IMG/VR virus record: IMGVR_UViG_3300009091_000008
Span: 1 to 39,271 of that record
Strand: one strand, 5' to 3'
Length of the DNA: 39,271 nt
Source: a virus
Shown: positions 20,842 to 33,680 of the stretch, one piece after another
Numbering within the stretch: the first letter of the stretch is position 1
Layout of the letters: each line of letters starts with the position of its first letter
Program-made: the position numbers and the translations under genes
The notes under the pieces: model-generated
Database searches by the model: none
Told to the model about the DNA's origin: nothing
Seen by the model: only the letters and a program-made list of their open reading frames with translations

Positions 20842-20916
20842 TGGTGGCCCCGGCGGGGATCGAACCCGCGTTTCCAGCTTGAAGGGCTGGGGTCCTAACC
20901 GCTAGACCACGGGGCC
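20842..20916 (-). tRNA. tRNA-Glu (anticodon UUC)
   Basis: Read on the minus strand, GGCCCCG pairs with CGGGGCC to form the acceptor stem. The D arm is GTCTAGCGGTTAGGAC, the anticodon stem-loop is CCAGC-CCTTCAA-GCTGG with anticodon TTC (complement at 20881-20883), and the T arm is GCGGG-TTCGATC-CCCGC. The 3' CCA is encoded. It is the only minus-strand gene found and converges on the lysis genes. UUC reads GAA best, and GAA is the favoured Glu codon in this genome, so it probably supports phage translation. Confidence 0.95.
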
Positions 20917-21029: not shown

Positions 21030-21096
21030 CCCCGCTGGAACTGTGGGGGACACGTTCCGCCGTCATTCTGCCCCGAAAAAAAATCGCTGTCCACTC

Positions 21097-21125
21097 TTGA
21101 CTGCCGTGTCACGGCGTGCTACATT
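21097..21125 (+). promoter_or_regulatory. Early promoter P1 with internal palindromic operator
   Basis: TTGACT (21097-21102) and TACATT (21120-21125) are 17 bases apart. The spacer contains GCCGTGTCACGGC, a perfect 6+1+6 palindrome. A protein bound there would cover the space between the two boxes and block or reshape polymerase binding. The expected start site falls on the ATG at 21132. Confidence 0.85.
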
Positions 21126-21131
21126 AGGGGC

Positions 21132-21275
21132 ATGACACAGGAACGTCTGAAACAGATGCGGGAACTGGCGGCGGCCCTGAACGGGATGGCTGACCTGGAA
21201 CGCGGCATCTGTGTGAGGCTGTGGGTGCTGGCGGCCGTATGGTGCGGCTGGTGGGCCCTGTTCCTGCTGGTCTGA
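21132..21275 (+). CDS. Small single-span membrane protein, probably leaderless
   Basis: The product has 47 residues: a polar helical N-terminal half (TQERLKQMRELAAALNGMADLERG) and a C-terminal hydrophobic segment (LWVLAAVWCGWWALFLLV). The ATG lies 6 bases after the -10 box of P1, at the expected transcription start, so the mRNA may begin at the AUG itself. The nearby AGGGG is too close to act as a normal ribosome site. It is the first gene of the early region. Role unknown; small early membrane proteins of phages often modify the host envelope or block superinfection. Confidence 0.6.
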   Translation: MTQERLKQMRELAAALNGMADLERGICVRLWVLAAVWCGWWALFLLV

Positions 21276-21287
21276 CAGGGGGACACG

Positions 21288-21485
21288 ATGGACACGAACA
21301 CGACGGAGCGGCTGGCCCAGGTGGAAGTGATAGCCCGGAGCCTTCACACCCTGCTGGGGGACCTGCTGCGGGTGGCGGACCAGGTGGTGCCGGACCACGT
21401 GGCCACGGACCCGGACCACGCCTATGGCCGCCTGGTGGACCGCGCGGAAGCCTACCTGCTGGAAGTGGAAGGGGTGCTGTCATGA
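21288..21485 (+). CDS. Small early protein
   Basis: The product has 65 residues. ATG 21288 follows CAGGGGGACACG, the shared early initiation site. The sequence is helical and acidic: a first helix (RLAQVEVIARSLHTLLGDLLRVAD), a short VVPDHVATDPDHAYGR turn and a second helix (LVDRAEAYLLEVEGVL). No cysteines or membrane segment. It is coupled to the following gene by ATGA. Function unknown. Confidence 0.6.
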   Translation: MDTNTTERLAQVEVIARSLHTLLGDLLRVADQVVPDHVATDPDHAYGRLVDRAEAYLLEVEGVLS

Positions 21486-22096
21486 AGCGGACCATTGGCA
21501 CCATTGAAGTGGCCCAGGACGTGGTGCTGCATTTCCAGGGCTACGAAACGGCCGCCTGGTGGGAAGACGTGAACGTGGCCGCGGGCAGCTACCCCGTCCA
21601 GGGGGAAGTGGACGCCCAGGGCAAGGTAAAAGACCTGGTGTTTTTCGGCCTTCCGGGCACGGTGGTGGCGGACTATTTCCGCAGTCTGTGGGGCGGGATG
21701 CCCATGGGCCAGGATTACGACCGCACCCAGAACGCAGGCAAGCCCAGTTCCTACCGGGGTTCCCTGTACCTGCACGCCAGCCACGGCCTGCTGAACGGGG
21801 GCGGCCAGGACCTGGGCCACGGGATGACGTTCCGGCTGGCGGATGACCTGCAAGCCACGGCCATCCAGGTTGACAGTTTCTGCCAGCCCGGAACGAAGGT
21901 CACCCTGGTGGACGTGCGGGCGGCCTTCCACGTGGAACGGGTCCGGCAGCGGGACGCCGTGGCCGTGAATGCGGCCCTGGTGGCGGCCAGGCTTCCGAAG
22001 TGGTGGACCCGGCACGATACGGACGGCCTGGTGACCATCGGGGTGGCACTGGACCAGGCCCAGGCCCTGCGGGACGCCGTGGCCCCCTGGCAGTAG
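21482..22096 (+). CDS. Early hypothetical protein
   Basis: The product has 204 residues. It starts with beta segments (IGTIEVAQDVVLHFQGYETAAWW) and continues with a KVKDLVFFGLPGTVVADYFRSLWGG segment and a His/Asp-containing middle (SLYLHASHGLLNGGGQDLGHG). The end is helical (DQAQALRDAVAPW). No Walker, HTH or other motif is clear. It is the last gene of the P1 transcript, since a strong terminator follows within 25 bases. Role unknown. Confidence 0.55.
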   Translation: MKRTIGTIEVAQDVVLHFQGYETAAWWEDVNVAAGSYPVQGEVDAQGKVKDLVFFGLPGTVVADYFRSLWGGMPMGQDYDRTQNAGKPSSYRGSLYLHASHGLLNGGGQDLGHGMTFRLADDLQATAIQVDSFCQPGTKVTLVDVRAAFHVERVRQRDAVAVNAALVAARLPKWWTRHDTDGLVTIGVALDQAQALRDAVAPWQ

Positions 22097-22118
22097 ATCC
22101 CCCAGCGGCCAGTGGAAG

Positions 22119-22147
22119 GGGCCCGGTCCGCCGGGCCCTTTTTCTTT
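22119..22147 (+). terminator. Rho-independent terminator of the P1 transcript
   Basis: GGGCCCGG (22119-22126) and CCGGGCCC (22131-22138) form a perfect 8-base stem with a TCCG loop, followed at once by TTTTTCTTT. This is the clearest intrinsic terminator in the window. The next early promoter starts only 11 bases after it. Confidence 0.9.
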
Positions 22148-22157
22148 GCGGAACCCC

Positions 22158-22186
22158 TTGACTCCCGTGTCACGCGGTGGTACATT
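22158..22186 (+). promoter_or_regulatory. Early promoter P2 with internal operator
   Basis: TTGACT (22158-22163), a 17-base spacer with CCCGTGTCACGCG, and TACATT (22181-22186). The GTG-T-CAC core is intact while the outer arms are imperfect. The predicted start site coincides with the base of the stem-loop at 22193. Confidence 0.85.
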
Positions 22187-22192
22187 CATTCC

Positions 22193-22214
22193 GTCAGGCC
22201 AAGGTGGCCAGGAC
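22193..22214 (+). promoter_or_regulatory. 5'-end stem-loop in the P2 leader
   Basis: GTC-A-GGCCA, loop AGG, then TGGCC-A-GGAC. It starts at the predicted first transcribed base. The same GTC-A-GGCC outline, with a different inner pair, occurs in the P4 leader. It may protect the 5' end or bind a protein. Confidence 0.55.
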
Positions 22215-22232
22215 AAAACGCAGGGGGACACA

Positions 22233-22970
22233 ATGGACGCCAGCACGTACCGGAGATGGGTGGTAAGGGAAGAACTGACCTGGCCCGAACGTGAACAGGT
22301 CTGGACCGTGCGGGACAACATGGCGGAAGGCGGGTTCTGGGACCCGCAGGCCACCAGGTTCCCCACGAAGGCGGAAGCGGACCAGGCCGTGGCGGACCTG
22401 GAAGCGGCCAGCGGGAACATGGACGGGGAAACGTCCCTGGCCTGGCACGTGGTGGTCACCTTCGGGGCGACCAGGGGCCGGTTCCGGGCGTGCAATTCCG
22501 CGGTGCGCTACGGGGTGGACCTGGCGGCCCTGGATGCGGCCATCTGGGCCCAGCAGGACGGATACGGGGTCAAGGGCTTCACCCCCGCCCAGGGCTGGGA
22601 CTGGTCCGGCATCCGGGACAGCAGCCACCTGGCCGTCCGCGATATGGCCCAGGCCATCCGGGAGAACCTGAAGGCCCAGGGGCTGGTGGTCAGAGTGGAA
22701 GCCCGCGGTAAGAGCGGACAGGTGGAAGTCACCTGGGCGCGGGCCCCCCGGCCGAAGGGCAGCAGCGGCGTGGTGAAGCATCAGGTGGTGGTGGACGGCC
22801 AGGTGCTGGCCATTCGGCGGTCCCCCCGCACGTACACCCACGCCGTGGTGGCCCGCTACACGGACGGCAGCCTGCACGTGGAGCGGTGGTCCCAGACCAG
22901 GAAGGCGGCGGATGCCTTTGCCCGGACGTTCACCAGGCCGCCGCTGGTGGTGGAAGTCACCCGGGGCTAG
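22233..22970 (+). CDS. Early hypothetical protein, mixed alpha/beta
   Basis: ATG 22233 follows GCAGGGGGACACA; an upstream in-frame ATG at 22146 lies before the promoter and is rejected. The product has 245 residues. The N-terminal region is helical and Trp/Glu-rich (YRRWVVREELTWPEREQVW). The middle has WHVVVTFGATRGRFRA, and there is a basic segment (RVEARGKSGQVEVTWARAPRPKG) that could touch nucleic acid. The C-terminal ~60 residues form a beta domain (HQVVVDGQVLAIRRSPRTYTHAVVARY). It is alone on its transcript. Function unknown. Confidence 0.55.
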   Translation: MDASTYRRWVVREELTWPEREQVWTVRDNMAEGGFWDPQATRFPTKAEADQAVADLEAASGNMDGETSLAWHVVVTFGATRGRFRACNSAVRYGVDLAALDAAIWAQQDGYGVKGFTPAQGWDWSGIRDSSHLAVRDMAQAIRENLKAQGLVVRVEARGKSGQVEVTWARAPRPKGSSGVVKHQVVVDGQVLAIRRSPRTYTHAVVARYTDGSLHVERWSQTRKAADAFARTFTRPPLVVEVTRG

Positions 22971-22993
22971 TCCCCCTGGCCCTGGGACGCGGG

Positions 22994-23025
22994 GGGCCTG
23001 GCTTCGGCCGGGCCCTTCGCGTTTT
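22994..23025 (+). terminator. Terminator with UUCG tetraloop
   Basis: GGGCCTGGC (22994-23002), loop TTCG, then GCCGGGCCC (23007-23015), with one G-U pair, followed by TTCGCGTTTT. The UUCG tetraloop makes the hairpin unusually stable. It ends the P2 transcript 12 bases before the -35 box of P3. Confidence 0.8.
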
Positions 23026-23036
23026 CAGGGGGGGAC

Positions 23037-23065
23037 TTGACAACGGTGTCACGGTGTGATACATT
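23037..23065 (+). promoter_or_regulatory. Early promoter P3 with internal operator
   Basis: TTGACA (23037-23042), a 17-base spacer containing ACGGTGTCACGGT, and TACATT (23060-23065). Its -35 box is a perfect consensus, so it may be the strongest of the set when not blocked. Confidence 0.85.
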
Positions 23066-23069
23066 AGCA

Positions 23070-23089
23070 GTGCTGGGCTGGTCCAGCAC
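23070..23089 (+). promoter_or_regulatory. 5'-end stem-loop in the P3 leader
   Basis: GTGCTGG (23070-23076) and CCAGCAC (23083-23089) pair perfectly around GCTGGT. The position relative to the start site matches the P2 and P4 hairpins, but the stem sequence is different, which favours a structural rather than sequence-specific role. Confidence 0.6.
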
Positions 23090-23107
23090 GGAACGCAGGG
23101 GGACACA

Positions 23108-23377
23108 ATGCGAAACCAGACACAGATAGAGCGGGACATTCTGATGGCCGTGGCCACGCTGCGGGACCTTCCCATGGCCACGGCGCGCACGGCCGAAGGG
23201 ATGGACCTGGGCGGCATGGACCGCGGGCTGGCGTACCGCCGCGCCCTGGCGGCCACCCGGCTGGTCCGCATGACCCTGAAGGCCGTGGAAGCGGACCTGG
23301 TGGGCCTTCAGACGCATGCCCACGTCTGGGGAGATGACAGCCGCTGCATGACCTGTGGCGCGGACGGGCTGGCCTGA
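23108..23377 (+). CDS. Small early protein with C-terminal Cys/His motif
   Basis: The product has 89 residues; ATG 23108 follows GCAGGGGGACACA. The first ~65 residues are helical (TQIERDILMAVATLRDLP, LAATRLVRMTLKAVEADL). The end HAHVWGDDSRCMTCGADGLA has two His and a CMTC pair and could bind one metal ion. It is the first gene on the P3 transcript and is coupled to the next gene by TGATG. Function unknown. Confidence 0.6.
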   Translation: MRNQTQIERDILMAVATLRDLPMATARTAEGMDLGGMDRGLAYRRALAATRLVRMTLKAVEADLVGLQTHAHVWGDDSRCMTCGADGLA

Positions 23378-23628
23378 TGGCCGCCGGGAAGGTCCACCTG
23401 GCCATTCACGCCCCGCTGGACCGCTGCACCCCCCAGCGGGGCACCATGACCCTGGACCGGGCCACCGGCCTGGTGACCGTGCGGCCCCTGCGGGCCCGGC
23501 GGGTTTACACCATGACCGTGGACTGGGTGGCCGGGGTGCTGGTCCAGGCCGTGCTGAAGGCGGAAGCCAGGGCCGCGGCCGCGGAGCGGAAGCCCAGGGC
23601 CCGCCGCGTCCGCCGCGGGGTGCTGTGA
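23377..23628 (+). CDS. Small early basic protein
   Basis: The product has 83 residues and starts at the ATG overlapping the preceding stop. The N-terminal half is beta-like (KVHLAIHAPLDR, GLVTVRPLRARRVYTMTVDWV), and the C terminus is strongly basic (AEARAAAAERKPRARRVRRGV). A nucleic-acid-binding role is possible from the charge alone. The stop overlaps the ATG of the metallohydrolase gene, so the three genes after P3 are translated as a tight unit. Confidence 0.55.
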   Translation: MAAGKVHLAIHAPLDRCTPQRGTMTLDRATGLVTVRPLRARRVYTMTVDWVAGVLVQAVLKAEARAAAAERKPRARRVRRGVL

Positions 23629-24263
23629 TGCGGGGCTGGGTGTCCGGGGACGTGCGGAGGGCCCTGGCACGGGCCCGGGACAGCGGGAACATGGGCCGCC
23701 TGGACCTGCTGCTGGCGGGCATAGAATCCGTCCCCCGGTCCGCCACCCGGGACCGGAAGCGGCTGGCCGTCTATGGCGCGGAGCGGGCCGCCTTCCGGGA
23801 CTGTACGGCCCGATACCCCAGCATTGCCGCCTGCCAGGAATACATAGACCGCTGCGTGGAAGACCGCCGCTTCCAGGCGGCCTTCCCCCACGTCAAGGCC
23901 ATCATGGTGAAGGCCAGCAGGTCCAGCAGGCGCATGGGTTCGTACTGGGGCGGGACCATCCAGGTATCGAAAGCCGGGCGGGTTTCCTGGGTGCTGCTGC
24001 ATGAACTGGCCCACGGGTGTGCGGACACCTGGCCGTCCCACGGCCGGGACTTCGTGAACGCTTACCTGGAACTGGTCCGGCTGTTCATGGGGGCCCCGGC
24101 CAGGAAGGCCCTGGCGGCGGAACTGCGGGCCCGGAAGGTGCCCCGCCGGGGGACGGACCTGGAAGCCTGGAAGACCAGGCAGCGGGCTACCTGCCGCCGG
24201 GCAGCACGTAAGGGCCGGGCCGCCGCGGCCACGTTCACTGTGGACCCGAAGAATAGCCCTTGA
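23628..24263 (+). CDS. Putative metallohydrolase, zincin type (TIGR04338-like)
   Basis: The product has 211 residues. WVLLHELAHGCADTWPSHGRDF gives the HExxH pair (His125, Glu126, His129) and a third ligand candidate His138 in SHG. The short spacing and the SHGRDFVNAYLELV tail resemble a group of small phage and actinobacterial metallohydrolases (TIGR04338) rather than classic secreted proteases. No signal peptide is present, so it acts in the cytoplasm. Its target is unknown. The C terminus is basic. Its stop codon lies inside the -35 box of P4. Confidence 0.68.
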   Translation: MRGWVSGDVRRALARARDSGNMGRLDLLLAGIESVPRSATRDRKRLAVYGAERAAFRDCTARYPSIAACQEYIDRCVEDRRFQAAFPHVKAIMVKASRSSRRMGSYWGGTIQVSKAGRVSWVLLHELAHGCADTWPSHGRDFVNAYLELVRLFMGAPARKALAAELRARKVPRRGTDLEAWKTRQRATCRRAARKGRAAAATFTVDPKNSP

Positions 24264-24288
24264 CTACCGTGTCACGCCGTGCTACATT
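24260..24288 (+). promoter_or_regulatory. Early promoter P4 with internal operator
   Basis: TTGACT (24260-24265), a 17-base spacer with ACCGTGTCACGCC, and TACATT (24283-24288). The -35 box overlaps the last codon of the metallohydrolase gene. No terminator is seen between P3 genes and P4, so the P3 transcript may read through. Confidence 0.85.
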
Positions 24289-24294
24289 AGCAGT

Positions 24295-24317
24295 GTCAGG
24301 CCGATGGACGGCCAGAC
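24295..24317 (+). promoter_or_regulatory. 5'-end stem-loop in the P4 leader
   Basis: GTC-A-GGCCG, loop ATGGA, CGGCC-A-GAC. Compared with the P2 leader the closing inner pair has changed from A-U to G-C while pairing is kept, and the A/A mismatch is at the same place. That is a small covariation signal for a real RNA structure. Confidence 0.6.
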
Positions 24318-24333
24318 GGAACAGGGGGACACA

Positions 24334-24729
24334 ATGAATAGGGTGCAGATGGAAGTCAGGGTGATGGGGACGGGGCCGCTGGCCCCCATGGCCGCGGCCA
24401 GCATTCTGGCGGACCGCCTGAACGGCCACGGGGCCGGGCAAGTCCAGCAGGACCTGCACATGGACTACCTGGCCATTCGTGCCGCCCAGTCCCACGTGAG
24501 GCTGCTGAACCTGCGGGCCCGGCGGGTGGTGGGCGGTGACCTTCGCTGCGGGAATGACCCGGTGGTGACCGTGGACTGTGAAGTCCACGTGGAACAGGCC
24601 AGCACGGCCATCAATCAGGTCCGGATGCTGCTGACGGGCCCCCGGCCGATGGGCACGGGTCACGCTCCGGACCCCACGGTGGACGTGCTGGACGTGACCG
24701 TGACGCCGCTGGTGCGGAAGGCCCGCTGA
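24334..24729 (+). CDS. Early hypothetical protein
   Basis: ATG 24334 follows ACAGGGGGACACA, and the upstream in-frame ATG at 24304 lies inside the leader hairpin, so it is rejected; the product has 131 residues. Segments alternate between strands and helices: VQMEVRVMG, APMAAASILADRLNG, QSHVRLLNLRARRVVGG, VVTVDCEVHVEQASTAINQVRMLL and DVLDVTVTPLVRK. It may be a small alpha/beta protein. There is no recognisable motif. A strong hairpin separates it from the next gene. Confidence 0.55.
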   Translation: MNRVQMEVRVMGTGPLAPMAAASILADRLNGHGAGQVQQDLHMDYLAIRAAQSHVRLLNLRARRVVGGDLRCGNDPVVTVDCEVHVEQASTAINQVRMLLTGPRPMGTGHAPDPTVDVLDVTVTPLVRKAR

Positions 24730-24740
24730 ACGAACGAACA

Positions 24741-24764
24741 GGGGGCCCGGCTGCCCGGGCCCCC
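24741..24764 (+). terminator. Strong GC hairpin without U-tract
   Basis: GGGGGCCCGG (24741-24750) pairs perfectly with CCGGGCCCCC (24755-24764) around CTGC. CCTGGGGGACACC and the next ATG follow directly, so the stem ends just before the ribosome site of the 24777 gene. It may act as a partial terminator or pause, or as a processing barrier. Confidence 0.5.
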
Positions 24765-24776
24765 CTGGGGGACACC

Positions 24777-25475
24777 ATGAACGTGACAGTGAAACATGAA
24801 GGCCCGCGGGGATGCGGGCACCGGAAGCCGGGCGGCCTGTACCTGGTGACGGACGGTCTGGGCCAGCCCTGTGGCCGTCTGCCCCTTCCGCTGGTCTGCT
24901 GTCCCACCTGTGGCCAGGGCATCCGCCCGGCCCGCGGCTGGTCCTGGGTGGACCCGCGGCCCATCATCCAGATGGCGCCCCCCTGCGTGAACAGCCCGGC
25001 GGCCTGCGGCGGGTGTCCGCTGTCCAGGGCGGACGGCCTGGGGGAACGGGCGGGCATCATCTGGGTGGGGGAACAGTTCTACCGGACGCCCACGGAATTC
25101 AACGTGGAAGCTGCCCGCATGGGCGTGTCCCGCCGCATCCACCAGGTGCCCAAAGACTTCAAGCTGGGCCAGACCTGGGTGCTGCTGGCCCATCGGAAGG
25201 CCATCCGGACAACCTGTCCGGCCTGCCACGGCCTGGGCCGGGTGCTGGACGTGAACGGCCCGGTGGACTGTGAACCCTGCAAGGCCGTGGGGTCCACCTG
25301 GCTGCCCGGCATCTTCCACGCCTTCCAGCCTGCCAGGATTGAATACGTGGTCCGGGACCAGGACACGGACGAAGCCCTGGAACGCCTGGTGGCCCGCGGC
25401 ATCACGCCCGTGAGGGTGGTCCCGGTGCCCGCGGAAGGGCCAGGACTGTTCGCGGAGGGGGCAGACCATGCGTGA
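24777..25475 (+). CDS. Cys-rich zinc-binding phage protein
   Basis: The product has 232 residues. Three likely metal sites are visible: the opening GCGHRKPGGLYLV with CGRLPLPLVCCPTCGQGI; CVNSPAACGGCPL near 75-90; and CPACHGLGRVLDVNGPVDCEPC near 145-165, which resembles a DnaJ-type zinc finger. The CGHRKPGGLYLV start is familiar from uncharacterised phage early proteins. The C-terminal part (YVVRDQDTDEALERLVARGITPVRVVPV) is alpha/beta. It could bind DNA, RNA or a host protein. It overlaps the next gene by eight bases. Confidence 0.65.
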   Translation: MNVTVKHEGPRGCGHRKPGGLYLVTDGLGQPCGRLPLPLVCCPTCGQGIRPARGWSWVDPRPIIQMAPPCVNSPAACGGCPLSRADGLGERAGIIWVGEQFYRTPTEFNVEAARMGVSRRIHQVPKDFKLGQTWVLLAHRKAIRTTCPACHGLGRVLDVNGPVDCEPCKAVGSTWLPGIFHAFQPARIEYVVRDQDTDEALERLVARGITPVRVVPVPAEGPGLFAEGADHA

Positions 25476-25977
25476 CGGCAAGCTGTCGGCCGCGGATCTT
25501 CGGTTCCTGCGGCACCTGCTGGATGGGGGCCGGGCTGTGATGACGCCCGGCCACGGCCTGGGCGTGTACCACCCGTCAGGGGTGCGCTACGGCCTGTCCG
25601 GCACGTACCCCTACAAGCTGTCCCAGCGGGGCCTGGTGGCCGTGGGGGGCCTGCTGGACGGCCAGCGGGCCGTAGCCCTGACCCCGGACGGGGCCCTAGT
25701 GGCGGAAGCCCACCAGCACACCACGGCCCTGCCGGATGCAGCCCTGAACCTGCTGGACCACCTGGCCCGTGGCCGCCTGGCCTGGGTGGGCCTGGGCGGG
25801 AAGCTGTGGCTGGCTGGCAAGCTGTCAGGCCATCTGGCCCCGGCCATGGTGGCCCTGCTGGACGCGGGCTATGCCCAGGTGATGGACCCGGATATGCCCA
25901 GGTGTCCTGACCGGCGGGTGCTGCTGACCACGGCGGGCCGCCGGTTCTATCACGACCTGACCACCGTATCGTCTTGA
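25468..25977 (+). CDS. Early hypothetical protein, possible winged-helix
   Basis: The product has 169 residues and starts at ATG 25468, inside the end of the preceding gene. It seems to hold two similar halves. LSAADLRFLRHLLDGGRAV...YPYKLSQRGLVAVGG...VALTPDGALVAE is followed by LPDAALNLLDHLARGRLAW...APAMVALLDAGYAQVM...VLLTTAGRRFYHDL. Each half runs helix-helix-hairpin and then a short LT-x-x-G segment, the style of winged-helix folds with a final 'LTPxG' strand. DNA binding is possible but not shown. Its stop codon overlaps the -35 box of P5. Confidence 0.5.
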   Translation: MRDGKLSAADLRFLRHLLDGGRAVMTPGHGLGVYHPSGVRYGLSGTYPYKLSQRGLVAVGGLLDGQRAVALTPDGALVAEAHQHTTALPDAALNLLDHLARGRLAWVGLGGKLWLAGKLSGHLAPAMVALLDAGYAQVMDPDMPRCPDRRVLLTTAGRRFYHDLTTVSS

Positions 25978-26013
25978 CGTGCCACGGGGCTGGAAGTATA
26001 ACGGCGTGACACG
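25974..26013 (+). promoter_or_regulatory. Promoter P5 with two operators
   Basis: TTGACG (25974-25979), a 17-base spacer and TATAAC (25997-26002). One palindrome core, CGTGCCACG, overlaps the -35 box (25978-25986). A second, CGTGACACG, covers the start site (26005-26013). This is the only member of the family with two cores, and its -10 box is nearest consensus. The double site suggests tight, possibly auto-regulated control of the gene behind it. Confidence 0.75.
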
Positions 26014-26029
26014 GGCCCGCTGCGGGCCC
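26013..26029 (+). promoter_or_regulatory. Leader hairpin of P5
   Basis: GGGCCCG (26013-26019), loop CTG, CGGGCCC (26023-26029), directly after the second operator and before GGGAGG. It is another stem-loop close to the 5' end of an early transcript. Confidence 0.5.
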
Positions 26030-26046
26030 TGGATGGGAGGAATGCC

Positions 26047-26277
26047 ATGGGGAAGATGGGGACCAGGCCGGTGGTTTTTGGCAGCCACCTGCCACTGCGC
26101 GTGGATGATGCCAAGCTGAAGGAAGTGGAGCGGGTCCAGGCGGACGTGGCGCGGGACCGCAGCTATACGGTCCGCTATCTGCTGGACCTGGGGCTGGCCC
26201 AGCATCGGGCCCGGATGCAGAAACGGGCCGCGGACCGCGCCTATCAGGCCCGGAAGCGGTCCACCGGGCGGGTGTGA
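26047..26277 (+). CDS. Ribbon-helix-helix-like protein, candidate operator-binding repressor
   Basis: The product has 76 residues with a GGGAGG ribosome site. VVFGSHLPLRVDDAKLKEVERV begins with a possible beta strand and a first helix; ARDRSYTVRYLLDLGLAQHRA fits the turn and second helix of Arc/MetJ/CopG-type repressors. The C-terminal tail is very basic (ARMQKRAADRAYQARKR). Such dimers bind short palindromes. It lies directly behind P5, whose two GTGNCAC palindromes would allow self-control. It is my first choice for the protein that reads the operators of the early promoter family; this link is inference. Confidence 0.55.
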   Translation: MGKMGTRPVVFGSHLPLRVDDAKLKEVERVQADVARDRSYTVRYLLDLGLAQHRARMQKRAADRAYQARKRSTGRV

Positions 26278-26504
26278 TGGTGGGACGGGGGGACACGTCC
26301 AGCCGGGCCCGGGTCAACGTCACCCTGCTGGGCAAGGTGCTGGGGGAGAAATTCGCGTCCCGCCTGCCGGAAGACGTGCGGCGGCACTACCAGGACCACC
26401 CCGAACACCTGGGGCCGGACCTGAAGCTGGTGGCCCTTTACTGCGTGCTGATTGTGGAACTGGGCGTGGCCATCGCACTGCTGGCCGCCTGGGCCGTGAA
26501 CTGA
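26277..26504 (+). CDS. Small C-tail-anchored membrane protein
   Basis: The start is ATG 26277, in a TGATG overlap with the previous stop (a GTG one codon earlier is also possible); the product has 75 residues. A polar N-terminal part (SSRARVNVTLLGKVLGEKFASRLPEDVRRHY) precedes one C-terminal membrane segment (LVALYCVLIVELGVAIALLAAW). It is coupled to the exonuclease gene by a further TGATG. Function unknown. Confidence 0.55.
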   Translation: MVGRGDTSSRARVNVTLLGKVLGEKFASRLPEDVRRHYQDHPEHLGPDLKLVALYCVLIVELGVAIALLAAWAVN

Positions 26505-26515
26505 TGGGGGAGAAC

Positions 26516-27448: not shown

Positions 27449-27450
27449 CC

Positions 27451-27687
27451 ATGCGGTTTCTCAAGGACGAAGAACTGGCCTGGTCGCCTGCGTCCGTCAC
27501 GGCGGACTGGCTGGCAATGCAGCGGGAACAGCGGGTGGCCATGGTAGAGGAACTGGCCTATGCCCGGGCCGTGGTGCGGGAATTCAAGGTCCTGAATTTC
27601 CAGGAACGGGTGAACCTGCCCAGCGGCCTGCGGTCCGGCCTGGACCACTACCTGCGGAAGCTGGCCGGGGACGGGGTGGTGCTGTGA
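27451..27687 (+). CDS. Small early protein downstream of exonuclease
   Basis: The product has 78 residues; the ribosome site is AGGGGGCCTGACC. It is helical throughout (SVTADWLAMQREQRVAMVEELAYARAVVREFK) with a C-terminal FQERVNLPSGLRSGLDHYLRKLAGDG segment. A closely similar FQERVDL segment occurs in the HTH protein at 28230. The last four bases (GTGA) overlap the start of the next gene. Function unknown. Confidence 0.55.
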   Translation: MRFLKDEELAWSPASVTADWLAMQREQRVAMVEELAYARAVVREFKVLNFQERVNLPSGLRSGLDHYLRKLAGDGVVL

Positions 27688-28184
27688 AGCCCCCGGACGG
27701 CTGGACGTGTCCGATGGGACGGCCCTGGGCGGACCACGAAGGGCCCAGCCCCGGGTTCCTGCACGTGGTAGGGCGGGGAGGGGTGGGCTGCATCCCAGCC
27801 AACCGCACCCAGCCAGCCATGGCGACTGGGCCCGGCCCAGTGGAACGGAACACCCTGTGGGACGAAGTGGCCGAACAGGACCACCCGGCCGTGCGGAACA
27901 CGGACCTGGACACCAGCCACGAAGCCTGGGCCATGGTGGAACCTGTGGCGGGCGCCCTGCGGGCTATGGTGCTGGTCCACCTGCGGACGCAGGGCCCGGC
28001 CACCTGCGGTGAAATCGCCCTGGCCCATGACTACCCCAGGGACAGCATCAGCCCCCGCATGGCTGAACTGCGGCATAAGGGGCTGGTGGAGAACAGCGGG
28101 ACGAAGCGGCGGATGCCTGGCAAGAAGTCCAGGCAGACGGTCTGGCAGGCCGTGCCGCCGGACGGCCCGGGAGAAACAGATTGA
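27684..28184 (+). CDS. Winged-helix DNA-binding protein
   Basis: GTG start at 27684; the product has 166 residues. The N-terminal third is Pro/Gly-rich and may be flexible. The C-terminal half has the typical phage wHTH layout: LRAMVLVHLRTQGPATCGEIALAHDYPRDSISPRMAELRHKGLVENSG, that is, a helix, a recognition-type helix (SISPRMAELRHKG) and a wing (KRRMPGKKSRQTVWQAV). It probably binds DNA as a regulator or in replication. The stop codon lies in the -35 box of P6. Confidence 0.65.
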   Translation: MKPPDGWTCPMGRPWADHEGPSPGFLHVVGRGGVGCIPANRTQPAMATGPGPVERNTLWDEVAEQDHPAVRNTDLDTSHEAWAMVEPVAGALRAMVLVHLRTQGPATCGEIALAHDYPRDSISPRMAELRHKGLVENSGTKRRMPGKKSRQTVWQAVPPDGPGETD

Positions 28185-28210
28185 CGCCACGTGCCACGTG
28201 GTGTTACATT
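28181..28210 (+). promoter_or_regulatory. Early promoter P6 with perfect 15-base palindrome
   Basis: TTGACG (28181-28186) and TACATT (28205-28210) are 18 bases apart. The spacer starts with CCACGTGCCACGTGG (28187-28201), a perfect 7+1+7 palindrome and the longest in the family. The leader is only about 13 bases, and the ribosome site GGGGGA lies almost at the 5' end. Confidence 0.85.
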
Positions 28211-28229
28211 AGGGCTGGGGGACACGAAG

Positions 28230-28709
28230 ATGAAAAGAACCGGAACGCGGGTCCTGACCTTGGCCGAAGCGGCCGCCCGGTCGGGACTGTCCAAAGCCAC
28301 CCTGAACCGTGCAGCCAAGCTGGGGGGCCTGCCAGCCACCCGGATTCCAGGCGGCCACCTGGACTGGATGGTAAGGGCCCGGGACGTGGACGCCTTTGTC
28401 AAGGCCAGGGGCGCCAGGAAGCGGAAGGCCCGTGGCGGCGGACCTGAACTGGGGCAGGCAAACAGTCTGCCATTCCAGGACCCCTGGAAGGGGAAGGTCA
28501 AGAAGCTGGACCCGGCCCCGGTGCCCGCGCCCGGCCAGGACGTGCGGCTGGTGACGGTCGGCGGGTTCCAGGAACGGGTGGACCTGACGGACCGGGCGGC
28601 CCGGAACCTGGGGATGCTGAAACACTGGACGGCCGCGCCCACGGCCGAAGTCCTGGATGCGGCCCTGGTGGCCCTGGCCCGGGAACTGGGCCTGCACGGG
28701 GTGGAGTGA
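28230..28709 (+). CDS. HTH regulator, excisionase/MerR-like N terminus
   Basis: ATG 28230 is chosen because it follows GGGGGACACGAAG and the upstream in-frame ATG lies before the -10 box; the product has 159 residues. VLTLAEAAARSGLSKATLNRAAKLGGLPATRIPGGHLDWMVRARDVDAFV is a winged HTH of the excisionase/MerR kind. A basic linker (KARGARKRKARGGG) and a second small domain (FQERVDLTDRAARNLGMLKHW, VLDAALVALAREL) follow. It is the second candidate, after the ribbon-helix-helix protein, for control of the early promoters. No integrase is present, so excision is unlikely to be its job. Confidence 0.68.
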   Translation: MKRTGTRVLTLAEAAARSGLSKATLNRAAKLGGLPATRIPGGHLDWMVRARDVDAFVKARGARKRKARGGGPELGQANSLPFQDPWKGKVKKLDPAPVPAPGQDVRLVTVGGFQERVDLTDRAARNLGMLKHWTAAPTAEVLDAALVALARELGLHGVE

Positions 28710-28885
28710 TGGGCGTTCCCACCGTACAAGAAGCCTGGATGCTGGTCCGTGGGGACCTGGGCATGGCCGACGTGGACCAGCCCCCGGACCTGTTCATGGC
28801 GGGCTGGACAGCCTACACCACCCTGGTGGCCGGGCCCCAGGCGGAAGCCCTGTGCAACCTGCTGTCCCGCCTGTTAGACGACTGA
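28709..28885 (+). CDS. Very small early protein
   Basis: The product has 58 residues; its ATG overlaps the stop of the HTH gene (TGATG). The sequence is GVPTVQEAWMLVRGDLGMAD, a DVDQPPDLFMAGWTAYTT segment and AEALCNLLSRLLDD, which is helical and acidic. Translational coupling and codon use like its neighbours support it as a real gene. Function unknown; it may act with the HTH protein. Confidence 0.6.
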   Translation: MGVPTVQEAWMLVRGDLGMADVDQPPDLFMAGWTAYTTLVAGPQAEALCNLLSRLLDD

Positions 28886-28924
28886 CCTTCAACCCGCGGC
28901 GGATGCCGCATAGTGGGGTGAGAC

Positions 28925-30010
28925 GTGGCAGAACAGAACGGAAGCGGACTGGTCCCGCAGTCTACGGGGTTCCTGGAACAGCAGCAGGGACCGGACGGCA
29001 GCCTGGCCACCCTGGGCCGGGAACAGTCCGGCATTCAAGCTGGGCTGGTGATCGCAAAGCGGTTCCCCCGGGACGAAACCCGGGCCGCGGCCAGCATCCT
29101 GAACACCTGCCGCCGGGCGGGGTTCGCGGAGCGGGCCCGCTACAGCTTCCCCCGGGGCGGGTCCACGGTGGAAGGGCCCAGTATCGTCCTGGCCAGGGAA
29201 ATGGCCATCCGCTGGGGGAACGTCCGGCACGGTTTCACGGTGACGGAGTGGACCCCGGACCGGGTGACCGTGGAAGGCTGGGCCGTGGACCTGGAAACGA
29301 ACACCTGGGCCACGTCTTCCGCCACCTTTGCCCGGCGGGTCCAGCGGAAGAACAAACAGACGCGGCAGACGGAGTGGGTGAAGCCGGACGAACGGGACGA
29401 ACGGGAACTGGTCAACCGGCACGGGGCGACTGCCCAGCGGAACGCCATCCTGCAAGTGATCCCCCGGGACATTGTGGATGACGCCATGACCCAGGTACGG
29501 AAGACGCTGGTGGACGCGGAAGCCGGACACCTGAAGTCTGACCCGGCCCGGGCCCGCCGCCTGCTGCTGTCCGCCCTGATGGACCTGGGGGTGACCCCGG
29601 ACCAGGTGGACGCCTATCTGGGCCGCCCGCTGGACCAGGCGACGGCGGAACAGATGGCGGACCTAAAGGGGGTGGGCCAGGCCATCGCGGAAGGCCAGGT
29701 GACCCGGGACGAAGTGTTCCCGCCCACCCAGCGGGAGGGCTCACCGCAGGCCGCCAGGCCCACTGACCCCCTGGACGCTCTAGCTGCGTCCCTGCCGAAC
29801 GCGGAACCGAACCCTGCCACCCAGCCAGCCCCGGTCACGAACGCCCCGCAGGCGCCCACAGGCGCGCAAGGCGGGCCCACTACGGTGGACTGCCCCGGAT
29901 GCGGGGCGAAGCTGACCGATGGGGCATCCCTTTGCCCGGATCCGGATTGTCCGTCTAACGTGACCGGAACGGTCCAGGAACCCATCACGAAGGGTTCCCG
30001 GAAGCGGTAA
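28925..30010 (+). CDS. Putative single-strand annealing protein with C-terminal zinc ribbon
   Basis: GTG start at 28925; the product has 361 residues. AGLVIAKRFPRDETRAAASILNTCRR, then FPRGGSTVEGPSIVLAREMAIRWGNVRHGFTVTEW, VEGWAVDLETNT and NRHGATAQRNAILQVIPRDIVDDA match a widespread phage family thought to be a RecT/Red-beta-like annealing protein. The pairing with YqaJ supports this. A disordered Pro/Ala-rich linker (~260-315) ends in CPGCGAKLTDGASLCPDPDCP, a four-Cys zinc ribbon not usual for annealing proteins; it could recruit another replication factor. Confidence 0.65.
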   Translation: MAEQNGSGLVPQSTGFLEQQQGPDGSLATLGREQSGIQAGLVIAKRFPRDETRAAASILNTCRRAGFAERARYSFPRGGSTVEGPSIVLAREMAIRWGNVRHGFTVTEWTPDRVTVEGWAVDLETNTWATSSATFARRVQRKNKQTRQTEWVKPDERDERELVNRHGATAQRNAILQVIPRDIVDDAMTQVRKTLVDAEAGHLKSDPARARRLLLSALMDLGVTPDQVDAYLGRPLDQATAEQMADLKGVGQAIAEGQVTRDEVFPPTQREGSPQAARPTDPLDALAASLPNAEPNPATQPAPVTNAPQAPTGAQGGPTTVDCPGCGAKLTDGASLCPDPDCPSNVTGTVQEPITKGSRKR

Positions 30011-30017
30011 ACTGCCC

Positions 30018-30041
30018 GGCCCCCGGCAAACGTCGGGGGCC
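30018..30041 (+). terminator. Hairpin between annealing and replication genes
   Basis: GGCCCCCG (30018-30025) pairs perfectly with CGGGGGCC (30034-30041) around GCAAACGT. ATTCCGCACACGTTTC follows, so no strong U-tract is present. It probably reduces but does not end transcription. Confidence 0.45.
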
Positions 30042-30068
30042 ATTCCGCACACGTTTCAGGGGGACACT

Positions 30069-31193
30069 GTGGCCCAGTATCGGACAGTGGACTGCCGCAT
30101 CTGGGGGGACCAGCGGTTTCTGGGGCTTCCCGATGCTTCCAAGCTGGCCTGGCTTTACCTGCTGACGCACCCCAACCAGACGGCCGTGGGGGCGTTCATG
30201 GCCACCCTGCCCGGGCTGTCCGCGGAACTGGGATGGCCCACGGCGGAACCCTTCCATGCCGTGCTGGCGGCGGGGATGGCCCTGCATGACCCGGCGGCCC
30301 GGATGTTCCTGCTGCCGCGTTTCATTCACTACAATCAGCCCCAGAATGTCAACCAGGTGAAGGGCTGGGCCCGGCCCCTGTCCCTGCTGCCGGAGTGCGG
30401 ATTGAAGCTGCGGCTGCTGGGGACGCTGCGGTCCTGGCTGGCGGAACACGGCAAAGACGGGATGCTGGAAGCCTTCCATGCGGCCTTCCCCCAGGACCCA
30501 GCGGAAGATGCCGCCATGCAGGAACACTATCGGAACCCTTCGGGAACGGTTCCGCCAACCGTTTCGAAATCAGGAACAGGAACAGGAACAGGAACAGGAA
30601 CAGGAATCCCCCCCTTACCCCCCCCTGTGGGGGGGTTCGTATCGGGCCCGACCGGGAAGCGGAAGCGGACGGCCCCGGCCCGGCCGTATAGCCAGGAATT
30701 CCTGGCGTTCTGGGATGCCATCCCAGCGAACCCGCGGAAGGTGAACCAAGACGGGGCATGGCGTATCTGGAAGGCTAAGGGGCTGGACCAGGAAGCGGAC
30801 CGCCTGGTGACCTGGGCTCGGGGGATGGGGCAATGCCACCAGTGGGTGGTGGACCAAAACATCCCGCTTGTCACCACCATGCTAAATCAGGACCGCTGGA
30901 AGGCACCGCTGCCCCGGGAAGTCCAGGCAGCCGCGCCACCCCAGCGGACCCCTGAACAGGAAGCGGACGCCTGGCGGATGGCCCGGCTGGGCTTCCTGCT
31001 GGCAGACCTGACCCGGGCCGTTCTCAAGAAACATGGGCTGGACCTGAAGCGGGAAGGCCAGGGGGCCATGGCTTGTCTGCTGGTCCTGGAAGCGGCCAGG
31101 AAGAACGGCCAGGACTTCAAGCCAGGGCACCATCCGGATGCTTTGATCCAGGCAGCCATGGAAGCCTGGGAACGTGGGCGCAAAGAAGCGTAG
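30069..31193 (+). CDS. O-like replication initiation protein
   Basis: GTG 30069 follows CAGGGGGACACT; the product has 374 residues. The N-terminal ~110 residues form a winged-helix unit common in phage initiators (YRTVDCRIWGDQRFLGLPDASKLAWLYLLTHP, MFLLPRFIHYNQPQNVNQVKGW). A Thr-Gly repeat and Pro-rich linker lie at ~168-190. The second domain (YSQEFLAFWDAIPANPRKVNQDGAWRIWKAKG, then IPLVTTMLNQDRWKAPLP) is the familiar C-terminal part of phage O/DnaD-like proteins that contacts the host helicase loader or helicase. It probably binds an origin and loads the host replisome. No phage polymerase was found. Confidence 0.75.
   Translation: MAQYRTVDCRIWGDQRFLGLPDASKLAWLYLLTHPNQTAVGAFMATLPGLSAELGWPTAEPFHAVLAAGMALHDPAARMFLLPRFIHYNQPQNVNQVKGWARPLSLLPECGLKLRLLGTLRSWLAEHGKDGMLEAFHAAFPQDPAEDAAMQEHYRNPSGTVPPTVSKSGTGTGTGTGTGIPPLPPPVGGFVSGPTGKRKRTAPARPYSQEFLAFWDAIPANPRKVNQDGAWRIWKAKGLDQEADRLVTWARGMGQCHQWVVDQNIPLVTTMLNQDRWKAPLPREVQAAAPPQRTPEQEADAWRMARLGFLLADLTRAVLKKHGLDLKREGQGAMACLLVLEAARKNGQDFKPGHHPDALIQAAMEAWERGRKEA
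30572..30607 (+). repeat. Tandem 6-base repeat inside the replication gene
   Basis: AGGAAC is repeated five times in a row and followed by AGGAAT. It encodes a Thr-Gly linker. As in lambda, where origin repeats lie inside the initiator gene, it may also be an origin element; alternatively it is only a linker grown by slippage. Confidence 0.6.
30619..30635 (+). repeat. C7-TGT-G7 perfect hairpin inside the replication gene
   Basis: Seven Cs and seven Gs flank TGT, 11 bases after the AGGAAC repeats. It could form a very stable cruciform or RNA stem. It encodes Pro-Pro-Val-Gly-Gly and may be part of an origin. Confidence 0.5.
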
Positions 31194-31389
31194 GGGCCAG
31201 GTCCAGGTGTTGGCCATCCTGCTGGACGGGCGCCAGCGGCTGGTGAACGCTGACTGCTGGGTGCAGGGCCGGGACCTGGTGCTGCCAGCGTTCCTACAGG
31301 ACCCGGAACAGGACGTTCCCAGGGTTTTCGGACACGTCGGGGAACATCGGACCGTTCCGGTCTATATCGAAGTTCAGGGGGACTGCTGA
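31174..31389 (+). CDS. Small early protein
   Basis: GTG 31174 overlaps the previous gene by 20 bases and gives 71 residues; a GTG at 31207, after TAGGGGCCAG, would give 60. The product is beta-rich (QVQVLAILLDGRQRLVNADCWVQGRDLVLP, RTVPVYIEVQGD). There is no known motif. The second start avoids the overlap and is also credible. Function unknown. Confidence 0.45.
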   Translation: MGAKKRRGQVQVLAILLDGRQRLVNADCWVQGRDLVLPAFLQDPEQDVPRVFGHVGEHRTVPVYIEVQGDC

Positions 31390-31405
31390 TGGACGGGGGC
31401 AGACC

Positions 31406-31642
31406 ATGACCAGGGAAATACGGCTGACGAAGAAACAGGGGGCCAGGTTCCTGAAGGGCCACCGCACGGAAACCACCAGGCGCGTGGTGGTGATGGTGGA
31501 CGGCCTGACCACCCGGACGGCCCGGGCTTCGGCCAAGCTGCCGCCGGACGTGGCCCAGGCACTGGCAGACCACCTGGCCCTGGAAATGGACGCCTGGCTG
31601 AAAATGGACGCCTGGCTGTCCACCCCGCGGAAACAGCCTTGA
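31406..31642 (+). CDS. Small early protein with internal duplication
   Basis: The product has 78 residues; ATG 31406 follows GGGGGCAGACC. A basic N terminus (TREIRLTKKQGARFLKGHRTETTRR) precedes a VVVMVDGL strand, a helix (PPDVAQALADHLALEMDAWL) and a tandem copy of MDAWL caused by an 18-base duplication. The stop codon overlaps the -35 box of P7. Function unknown. Confidence 0.55.
   Translation: MTREIRLTKKQGARFLKGHRTETTRRVVVMVDGLTTRTARASAKLPPDVAQALADHLALEMDAWLKMDAWLSTPRKQP
31584..31618 (+). repeat. In-frame 18-base tandem duplication
   Basis: AAATGGACGCCTGGCTG occurs at 31584-31600 and again at 31602-31618, an offset of exactly 18 bases. It adds six codons without a frameshift. The copies are identical, so the event is probably recent. 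Confidence 0.85.
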
Positions 31643-31668
31643 CAGACGGTGGCACGCCGTCATACGTT
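31639..31668 (+). promoter_or_regulatory. Early promoter P7 with internal operator
   Basis: TTGACA (31639-31644), an 18-base spacer with GACGGTGGCACGCCGTC, and TACGTT (31663-31668). The core is GTG-G-CAC. The outer arms GACGG and CCGTC pair, but the inner part is less regular than in P1 or P6. The predicted start is close to 31674, just before the shared initiation site. Confidence 0.75.
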
Positions 31669-31688
31669 AGCCCATGAAGGGGGACACA

Positions 31689-32099
31689 ATGAACCCAGGC
31701 GAAAACGGCCAGGAACAGGACAAGTGCAGGGCGGAAGTGCAGGTGAGGGGCCTTTTCGGACAGTACGCCCGATGCCAGCGGGCCGCATTCGTGGATGGGT
31801 GGTGTTACCAGCACCATCCCGATGCCCAGGCCGCCCGGGACCGTGCGTCTGCCCAGCGGTATGACCGGCAACTGTGGCCAGGCCGGGTCAAAGACAACGC
31901 CCAGGCCGCCTGCAAGCTGGCCGGGGCCCTGCTGGAAACCATGGTGGAAGTGGGGGCGGCGCCCGCGGACTATCGGGCCCTGGCGGACTACCTGACGGAC
32001 TGCGGGAACTGGAACGGCGACAATGCCACCCGGCCCCTGCTGTCCCAGGACGTGCTGGGCCACTATACGCCCCTGGCCGTGGACCGGACGGATCCATGA
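31689..32099 (+). CDS. Early zinc-finger-like protein
   Basis: ATG 31689 follows AAGGGGGACACA; the in-frame ATG at 31674 lies at the expected transcript start and is less likely. The product has 136 residues. CRAEVQ...YARCQRAAFVDGWCYQHHPDAQAARDRA gives a C...C...C-x2-H-H arrangement, a small zinc finger often seen in phage early proteins. The rest is helical (NAQAACKLAGALLETMVEVGAAPADYRALADYL). It probably binds nucleic acid or a host protein. It is coupled to the next gene by ATGA. Confidence 0.6.
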   Translation: MNPGENGQEQDKCRAEVQVRGLFGQYARCQRAAFVDGWCYQHHPDAQAARDRASAQRYDRQLWPGRVKDNAQAACKLAGALLETMVEVGAAPADYRALADYLTDCGNWNGDNATRPLLSQDVLGHYTPLAVDRTDP

Positions 32100-32410
32100 C
32101 ACCCGCCCGGCTGGCTGCCCTGCGGCTGCTGCGGGATGAAGGGCCCCTGACAGCATCCTGGCTGGCCTTCCGGCTGTGGGGGAAGCCAGGCGCGGCCGGT
32201 TCCCAGGCGCGGCGGGCGTGGGTGCTGTCTGCCGGAGCCTACCTGGGCAAGCTGCGGGCAGCCCACCTGGCCAGGAAGAATGCCGCCAGCGGCCAGTGGA
32301 CCCTGACGCAGCACGGCCAGGACTGCCTGGCCCATGCTGAACTGGACCTGCTGACCAGGGCCCTGGCGAGTTTCAAAACGTCAAAAACTACACACCAGAA
32401 CGGGGGGTGA
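32096..32410 (+). CDS. Small winged-helix-like protein
   Basis: The product has 104 residues and starts in the ATGA overlap at 32096. ARLAALRLLRDEGPLTASWLAFRLWG, ARRAWVLSAGAYLGKLRAAHLARK and SGQWTLTQHGQDCLAHA follow the helix-helix-wing order of a winged HTH ending in a 'WxLTxxG' strand. The C-terminal tail is polar. DNA binding is likely but not certain. It follows the zinc-finger gene on the P7 transcript. Confidence 0.55.
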   Translation: MTPARLAALRLLRDEGPLTASWLAFRLWGKPGAAGSQARRAWVLSAGAYLGKLRAAHLARKNAASGQWTLTQHGQDCLAHAELDLLTRALASFKTSKTTHQNGG

Positions 32411-32413
32411 AGG

Positions 32414-32623
32414 ATGCCGGGGGCATGGTGGTGGCTGACCGTCTGGCTGGCGGCGGCCGGGCTGTTCTACGTGGCCGGGGTGGCCTTCAAGTCCAGCAGC
32501 GGTGAAACGCCCAGCGGAAGCTGGGTTCTACTCTGGTCTGCCGTCTGCCTGGCCTGGCCCTGGACCATGGGGCTGACCGTGGTGGGCTTCGTGCTGGGCG
32601 TGACGGCCAGACGGAGGGGGTGA
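32414..32623 (+). CDS. Small two-span membrane protein
   Basis: The product has 69 residues. Two hydrophobic segments (WWWLTVWLAAAGLFYVAGVAF and LLWSAVCLAWPWTMGLTVVGFVLG) flank a short polar turn (KSSSGETPSGS); the C terminus is basic (TARRRG), which suggests both ends face the cytoplasm. It starts three bases after the preceding stop. A superinfection-exclusion or accessory-holin role is possible but unproven. Confidence 0.55.
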   Translation: MPGAWWWLTVWLAAAGLFYVAGVAFKSSSGETPSGSWVLLWSAVCLAWPWTMGLTVVGFVLGVTARRRG

Positions 32624-32626
32624 CCT

Positions 32627-33013
32627 GTGCGGCGGAAGCGGCAGCGGATGTTGGAAGCCACAGGGAAGCTGGACCGGAACCGGGAACCGGACCCGGCATC
32701 CAGGTTCCTGGACGGGGTGGCCCTAGACTTCAACCTGGCAGTGGATGGGCTGGACCGGGTGCGGGTGCTGCTGGGCGCAAAGCCCCACGTTCGCTGCCTG
32801 GTCCGGACGGAATACCATCCTGGCAGGACCATGATGGACCAGAACGCCGTCCGGGTGGGCTGGGGCAGCAGGTGGACGGACTGGCTGGGCTGGGCCCTAT
32901 TTCAGCCCCTGGAATGGGGCGTGGAACGTCCGGTGGCTTTGGCCTGGCGGGCCTGGAAGCGTGTCCAGGGCATGTTCCACGTGGAACGCCAGGCGGAAGG
33001 GGGCCAGCCATGA
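32627..33013 (+). CDS. Early hypothetical protein
   Basis: GTG 32627 follows GGAGGGGGTGACCT; the product has 128 residues. The start is very basic (RRKRQRMLEATGKLDRNR), then a helix (FLDGVALDFNLAVDGLDRVRVLL). A Trp-rich stretch (VGWGSRWTDWLGWALFQPLEWG) could lie on the membrane surface. It ends WKRVQGMFHVERQAEGG and overlaps the next ATG by four bases. Function unknown. Confidence 0.5.
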   Translation: MRRKRQRMLEATGKLDRNREPDPASRFLDGVALDFNLAVDGLDRVRVLLGAKPHVRCLVRTEYHPGRTMMDQNAVRVGWGSRWTDWLGWALFQPLEWGVERPVALAWRAWKRVQGMFHVERQAEGGQP

Positions 33014-33396
33014 CTGGCGCGGAGGAACGGGCCGCACGGGTGGAGTGGGGGAACATCCCCATTGCCTTCCGCCCTGAGTGGGAATCGTACTGGCTGGGCT
33101 GGCAGGCCCGCGCCGCCCGCGCCGGGAAGGGGCCATACACCTTCGACTGTGACGCCGAAGTGATCCGCGATGCAGACGGGATCATCGTCCAGTGGAAGGA
33201 GATCCTTGCTTGCCTCAACGCCCGCGCCGGGGGTGAGCAGGCCATCGTGGAGGCGGCGCGGCGGATCAGCCCCGACGAGTGGCGCATAGCAGTCCATGAA
33301 GCGGAAGGCGAGTCGCGGACGATAGCTAGCAAGCTGCGCGCCCTCGCCTCCGCCGTGGAGGCCCAGCCCGCCCCGCCACGCGAGGGGAAGCCGTGA
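33010..33396 (+). CDS. Chimeric-looking small protein with atypical codon use
   Basis: The product has 128 residues. The first ~42 (TGAEERAARVEWGNIPIAFRPEWESYWLGW) use codons like the rest of the phage. From about 33140 the style changes: Glu becomes mostly GAG (7 of 10), CTC appears, and Arg is often CGC. The second part (CDAEVIRDADGIIVQWKEILACL, AIVEAARRISPDEWRIAVHEAEGESRTIASKLRALASAVE) is helical, with no known motif. The change points to recent import of the 3' part, from the host or another phage. The stop overlaps the next ATG. Confidence 0.55.
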   Translation: MTGAEERAARVEWGNIPIAFRPEWESYWLGWQARAARAGKGPYTFDCDAEVIRDADGIIVQWKEILACLNARAGGEQAIVEAARRISPDEWRIAVHEAEGESRTIASKLRALASAVEAQPAPPREGKP

Positions 33397-33647
33397 TGCG
33401 GCCGACCCGTGTTCCCCAGCCAGTGGTTTTCATAGCCCACCTGATTGATGCCCTGCGGCATCCTGGGGAATCCAGACTACATGCCGCGGAACGGACGCTG
33501 CTAGAGGAAGCCCTGTGGACCGCCCGGGGCTGCCAGCAGGCCGCGGCTGAAGACCTGGGCATCAGCCCCAGGGTCATGAATTACAAGCTGGGCAAGCGGG
33601 CCATGCGCCCGAAGGATAGAAAGCCCACCACGCCAGTGGACAACTGA
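33396..33647 (+). CDS. Fis-type HTH protein
   Basis: The product has 83 residues; ATG 33396 follows GAGGGGAAG and overlaps the previous stop. The C-terminal half ERTLLEEALWTARGCQQAAAEDLGISPRVMNYKLGKRAMRPKD matches the Fis/NtrC-type DNA-binding helix-turn-helix (an 'AA..LGIS.r....KL' core). The N-terminal part is short and has no receiver or ATPase domain. It is probably a small DNA-bending or regulatory protein, perhaps for late genes. Promoter P8 lies across its stop codon. Confidence 0.68.
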   Translation: MRPTRVPQPVVFIAHLIDALRHPGESRLHAAERTLLEEALWTARGCQQAAAEDLGISPRVMNYKLGKRAMRPKDRKPTTPVDN

Positions 33648-33680
33648 CAGGCATGGGCGTATGTTACACGCCGTGACACG
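33637..33680 (+). promoter_or_regulatory. Promoter P8 with operator at the start site
   Basis: TGGACA (33637-33642), 17 bases, TATGTT (33660-33665). The palindrome core CGTGACACG (33672-33680) sits at the expected start site, in inverted orientation relative to P1-P4. A GGGGC-GGAC-GCCCC stem-loop (33684-33697) follows in the leader. It serves the operon of secreted and membrane proteins. Confidence 0.55.

Follow-up and report, generated by a model that had tools for sequence, protein, structure and literature searches.

The 39,271-bp virus record IMGVR_UViG_3300009091_000008 of IMG/VR (taken in its entirety and referred to below as the window) was found to possess eight promoters, P1-P8, each overlaid by the same 17-bp element, a pair of short palindromes set one helical turn apart. 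There is strong support for regarding all eight, with their common operator, as one regulon. The eight sites are best explained as operators of one phage-encoded transcription factor, the likeliest being a ribbon-helix-helix (RHH) protein of 76 amino acids encoded at 26047-26277 and acting as a repressor, a reading to which we give a probability of about 0.52. A preliminary description of this DNA had proposed an early regulon which one protein could switch off. The eight promoters and the common operator are upheld; P8, however, precedes late genes (terminases and structural genes), which takes the circuit beyond the early region. Shut-off by one protein is plausible; there is a good candidate, for which we infer binding, the sign of the effect (repression) and its timing.

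The heptad GTGNCAC, previously put forward as the operator, is present at all of P1-P8. On its own, however, it occurs at chance level in the window (19 found vs. 21.4 expected) and was rejected as the operator for that reason; the specific element is the pair at 10 bp. This is a 17-bp doublet of two palindromic heptads with centres exactly 10 bp apart (GTNNNAC-N3-GTNNNAC, in its best form GTGNCAC-N3-GTGNYAC), the heptad consensus being GTGNCAC and the weaker member GTGNTAC or GTNNNAC, with the bases between the fixed positions varying freely. Eight of the 19 GTGNCAC heptads have a GTNNNAC partner at plus or minus 10 bp, and these are exactly the ones at P1-P8. Similarly, the pattern GTNNNACNNNGTNNNAC, with eight fixed bases, has eight occurrences in the window, all at P1-P8. 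Other heptad spacings from 7 to 40 bp gave at most two pairs each, as did any spacing in 200 shuffles. The perfect palindromes reported earlier in P1 (GCCGTGTCACGGC) and P6 (CCACGTGCCACGTGG) were also recovered. The doublet and its exact coincidence with promoters can be regarded as established.

Four of the promoters, P1-P4, had been described as near identical, which was borne out by four exact matches to TTGACN18TACATT (0.01 expected) starting at 21097, 22158, 23037 and 24260. A promoter search was run on both strands of the full window, strong sigma-70-like sites being defined by at least 10 of 12 matches to TTGACA/(TATAAT or TACATT). Strong sites proved to be exactly P1-P7, with none on the minus strand, and P8 is a weaker promoter (9/12). 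The extents of the units given below were deduced from gene layout rather than from transcripts.

21097..21125, plus strand: promoter P1; doublet GTGTCAC-ggc-GTGCTAC at 21106-21122; predicted to drive 21132-22096
22158..22186, plus strand: promoter P2; doublet GTGTCAC-gcg-GTGGTAC at 22167-22183; predicted to drive 22233-22970
23037..23065, plus strand: promoter P3; doublet GTGTCAC-ggt-GTGATAC at 23046-23062; predicted to drive 23108-24263
24260..24288, plus strand: promoter P4; doublet GTGTCAC-gcc-GTGCTAC at 24269-24285; predicted to drive 24334-25977
25974..26012, plus strand: promoter P5, TTGACG-17-TATAAC; doublet GTATAAC-ggc-GTGACAC at 25996-26012, over the -10 and start site; predicted unit 26047-28184 (RHH gene, RecE-like exonuclease, winged-helix-like protein at 27684)
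25979-25985: extra heptad GTGCCAC of P5, covering the -35
28181..28210, plus strand: promoter P6, TTGACG-18-TACATT; doublet GTGCCAC-gtg-GTGTTAC at 28191-28207; predicted unit 28230-31642 (HTH_17 protein, PHROG 3657 protein, DnaD-like helicase loader)
31639..31668, plus strand: promoter P7, TTGACA-18-TACGTT; doublet GTGGCAC-gcc-GTCATAC at 31649-31665; predicted to drive 31689-33647
33637..33679, plus strand: promoter P8, TGGACA-17-TATGTT; doublet GTTACAC-gcc-GTGACAC at 33663-33679, over the -10 and start site; predicted unit from 33709 onward into the terminases, then the structural genes across the circular join

In P1-P4, P6 and P7 the doublet is placed within the -35/-10 spacer, its second heptad overlapping the -10 (GTG-N-TAC-ATT). 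In P5 and P8 it is displaced downstream by one helical turn, where it covers the -10 and start site, and the strong heptad, GTGACAC, comes second. Since the doublet shifts relative to the -10 in P5 and P8 yet keeps its internal spacing of 10 bp, it is most readily interpreted as the site of a protein, superimposed on the promoter but distinct from it. The alternative would be a motif intrinsic to the promoter, an extended -10 combined with a spacer favoured by the sigma factor, with no regulator involved. It draws on the fact that GTGNTACATT contains an extended -10 (TGnTAC), the second heptad in P1-P4 and P6 supplying the TG that precedes the second hexamer, and that promoters with TTGACA and TGNTAC, their spacers diverse, stand ahead of genes in many phages. 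In P7 the TG is absent, although the second heptad still gives the TAC of the -10; in all six promoters the conservation of the second heptad is therefore promoter-derived in part. However, the doublet is retained in P5 and P8, where GTGACAC falls beyond the -10, and the spacer GTGNCAC is fixed in six promoters in which its central base and its neighbours vary. On account of P5, P7 and P8 a pure promoter motif is unlikely, and we regard it as the most improbable of the explanations weighed here.

The candidate regulator is the product of the first gene after P5. Three further genes for DNA-binding proteins are encoded nearby, the winged-helix-like one of the P5 unit (27684) and two with helix-turn-helix (HTH) domains.

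26047..26277, plus strand: RHH protein of 76 amino acids, candidate regulator
28230..28709, plus strand: HTH_17/excisionase-like protein (PF12728, E 5.1e-9; phrog_66, E 1.9e-9; BldC model, E 0.0023)
33393..33647, plus strand: Fis-type HTH_8 protein (PF02954, E 9.1e-8), last gene ahead of P8

The 26047 product matches PHROG 4738, annotated as 'transcriptional repressor' (E 3.1e-5). In bacterial genomes the same profile picks up NikR-like and CopG-like RHH proteins (named from their sequences by eye), so that the 26047 product is, by sequence, a member of the RHH family; this homology we take as established. Its predicted DNA-contact strand, H14-L-P-L-R18, aligns with HFNFR of Mnt and QFNLR of Arc from phage P22, the arginine being invariant, at an identity to the two P22 proteins of only 15-19%. 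A fold search with the single-sequence model gave no useful match.

Several observations weigh against the RHH repressor. Pfam, including its RHH models, gave no match for the 26047 protein. AlphaFold2, run with one or two sequences, returned a strand followed by one long helix in which the helix-helix break is not resolved. The second heptad doubles as an extended -10 in five of the eight sites (P1-P4, P6), and GTGNCAC is not clearly enriched over control heptads in the promoters of other phages. No close relatives were found in the collections searched apart from a contig (L006) that is a fragment of the same virus; searches with the terminase, RHH and PHROG-3657 proteins returned distant terminases and L006. 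Finally, the three neighbouring DNA-binding proteins (27684, 28230 and 33393) offer other possible regulators.

Two of these, the HTH_17/excisionase-like protein under P6 and the Fis-like protein at 33393, could bind the doublet instead, a possibility that we consider doubtful but worth weighing. The 17-bp site is also palindromic around its own centre (CAC-NNN-GTG), so that it could serve a symmetric HTH dimer as a single palindrome centred on NNN. A BldC/excisionase-like protein might instead bind head to tail along the 10-bp direct repeat. The 28230 gene, directly under P6, has an HTH_17 domain with weak BldC similarity, and BldC-type proteins are known to bind direct repeats, AATTxxxxC (PMC5859096). 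That sequence is AT-rich, however, unlike the GC-rich, palindromic GTGNCAC. Moreover, the heptads are individually palindromic, a feature accounted for by an RHH dimer but not required of a single HTH half-site.

Outside the window, an otherwise unrelated viral contig (L028; 11.5 kb, 42% GC) carries GTGCCAC-nCT-GTGCTAC at two promoters. One of these starts 72 nt ahead of the start codon for an Arc-like RHH protein of 48 amino acids (phrog_582, E 1.7e-5). The gene immediately behind this promoter is thus of the RHH and not the HTH kind, which speaks against an HTH protein as the binder. This contig remains the single independent case supporting the pairing of doublet and RHH protein. Its second doublet promoter, at 3705-3731, is flanked by a gene on the minus strand and an apparently HTH-like one on the plus strand and is possibly a divergent switch.

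The scan that brought up L028, with TTGACN{3,5}GTGNCACNNNGTGNTAC, gave promoter matches in 11 contigs, and its matches other than L028 lie ahead of replication genes in various phages. These had suggested an operator widely shared among phages, an idea that was rejected because a control scan with 16 spacer heptads in 71 contigs yielded comparable numbers with other heptads, for example GTGnCAG; the scan pattern selects extended -10 promoters. The pattern GTGNCACNNNGTGNTACATT in viral contigs was likewise discarded, its 48 stretches being almost all chance matches within genes, and 399 genomes of one bacterial phylum yielded five pattern matches and no signal. It could also be supposed that a host regulator binds the sites, the phage being wired into host physiology and not governed by a repressor of its own. 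In genome contigs of 84,980 species (one genome per species), the full promoter-operator pattern was found in just two places, in unrelated phyla; a widespread host regulon with the full pattern is therefore not indicated, a looser host motif is possible, and the proposal as a whole is judged quite unlikely.

Under the RHH reading, one dimer would occupy each heptad with its beta-ribbon in the major groove, and two dimers, 10 bp apart on the same face of the DNA, would cooperate. Because the doublet overlies either the -35/-10 spacer and the -10, or the -10 and start site, bound dimers would mask the promoter and keep RNA polymerase out, which makes repression the simplest sign of the effect; activation is the less simple alternative. 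The regulator gene is itself preceded by the operator at P5, and its expression would thus be autoregulated and self-limiting. After infection the protein would accumulate from P5 and shut off P1-P7, P8 would couple the late operon to the same switch, and, should the phage persist in its host, the regulator may keep the early promoters closed.

The nearest likeness is to the immI region of P22, with its small phage RHH repressors Arc and Mnt. The operator of Arc occupies the -35/-10 spacer of its promoter and that of Mnt follows immediately downstream; both placements recur in the present phage. The P22 region differs in having one divergent promoter region, compared with one operator at eight promoters in this phage, and in operator sequence, spacing and surrounding genes. 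A further precedent for an RHH operator within a promoter is MobC of RA3, which binds between -35 and -10 (PMC4175270). The omega (ParB) protein of pSM19035 also resembles the proposed system, as its RHH dimers act on 7-bp units over several promoters including its own, three in all (PMC9499535). However, the omega operators are 7-10 contiguous, non-palindromic WATCACW heptads (PMC9499535), in contrast to the two palindromic GTGNCAC heptads with a 3-bp gap found here, and a partition role is not indicated. At relO, RelB dimers sit side by side on the same DNA face with critical spacing (PMC2812701); this is toxin-antitoxin autoregulation at one promoter through gapless hexads, and no toxin gene was identified in the present phage.

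The likeness to actinobacteriophages drawn in the preliminary description holds for layout and for nothing beyond it. Cluster A phages carry many copies of one operator, the stoperator, across the genome under one repressor (PMC9283540, PMC6550527), and these sites, which lack symmetry, also arrest elongation at a distance from promoters (PMC9283540). The dispersed copies recall the L5 type; here, however, they are symmetric heptad pairs, and eight out of eight are at promoters. The absence of a classic immunity region, also noted previously, agrees with the present results. The divergent promoters of a lambda-type region are not seen, there being no strong minus-strand promoter in the window, and neither a CI-like repressor nor the integrase that usually accompanies it was found among the ~30 early proteins scanned, the late proteins being judged by reading and not all scanned.

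The record is most likely the complete genome of a circularly permuted tailed phage, since its first 37 bases are identical to its last 37 and the portal ORF continues across the join. Its G+C content is 67%, and all genes are on the plus strand except one for tRNA-Glu. The early region (approximately 21.1-33.6 kb) comes after the late genes for portal/MuF, head, tail and endolysin; behind it lie genes for a small group of secreted proteins and then those for the terminases. At the join (37805-39271 and 38-2002), the portal ORF runs into a MuF-like ORF which also has a zinc-protease-like motif, VHEMAH, and a portal-MuF-protease fusion is possible. The tRNA-Glu (UUC; 20842-20916, minus strand) lies between the late and early regions and has a possible codon-supply or attachment role; no integrase to go with the latter was seen in the proteins scanned or read as above.

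Short predicted stem-loops near the presumed transcript start open the leaders of five units.

22192-22222: leader stem-loop of P2
23070-23100: leader stem-loop of P3
24293-24323: leader stem-loop of P4
26008-26038: leader stem-loop of P5
33681-33707: leader stem-loop of P8

Their z-scores range from -1.1 to -2.8 vs. shuffles, and because their sequences differ a simple reading is that of a hairpin stabilising the 5' end. A terminator-like hairpin with a T tract (22125-22146) closes the P1 unit right ahead of P2. The repeat GGGGGACAC is present in 10 copies in the early region (window positions 21045-31687), all on the plus strand, of which eight are directly ahead of start codons (GGGGGACACAATG type). 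Together with the leader hairpins it recalls the SAS/ESAS of cluster K phages, a short repeat found where genes begin and in some cases preceded by inverted repeats (PMC3203893). The SAS is a 13-bp sequence, GGGATAGGAGCCC, whereas the start repeat here is GGGGGACAC, the 13-mer itself not having been searched for; the SAS also sits at translation starts, in contrast to the doublet, which is in promoters.

Taken at its widest, the circuit would place the entire transcription programme of a tailed phage, the recognisable early promoters and that of the late operon alike, under one autoregulated 76-aa RHH protein and eight 17-bp operators, with no CI-type switch or integrase, a proposal which we advance tentatively. 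If it is true, one protein of 76 residues and one site of 17 bp set the timing of the whole phage genome, a very compact regulon. Defined operators, a 10-bp spacing rule and one candidate gene make the circuit accessible to tests with synthetic promoters outside its host. If confirmed, it would widen the known reach of RHH repressors of the P22 type from a lone switch to a regulon dispersed across the genome.

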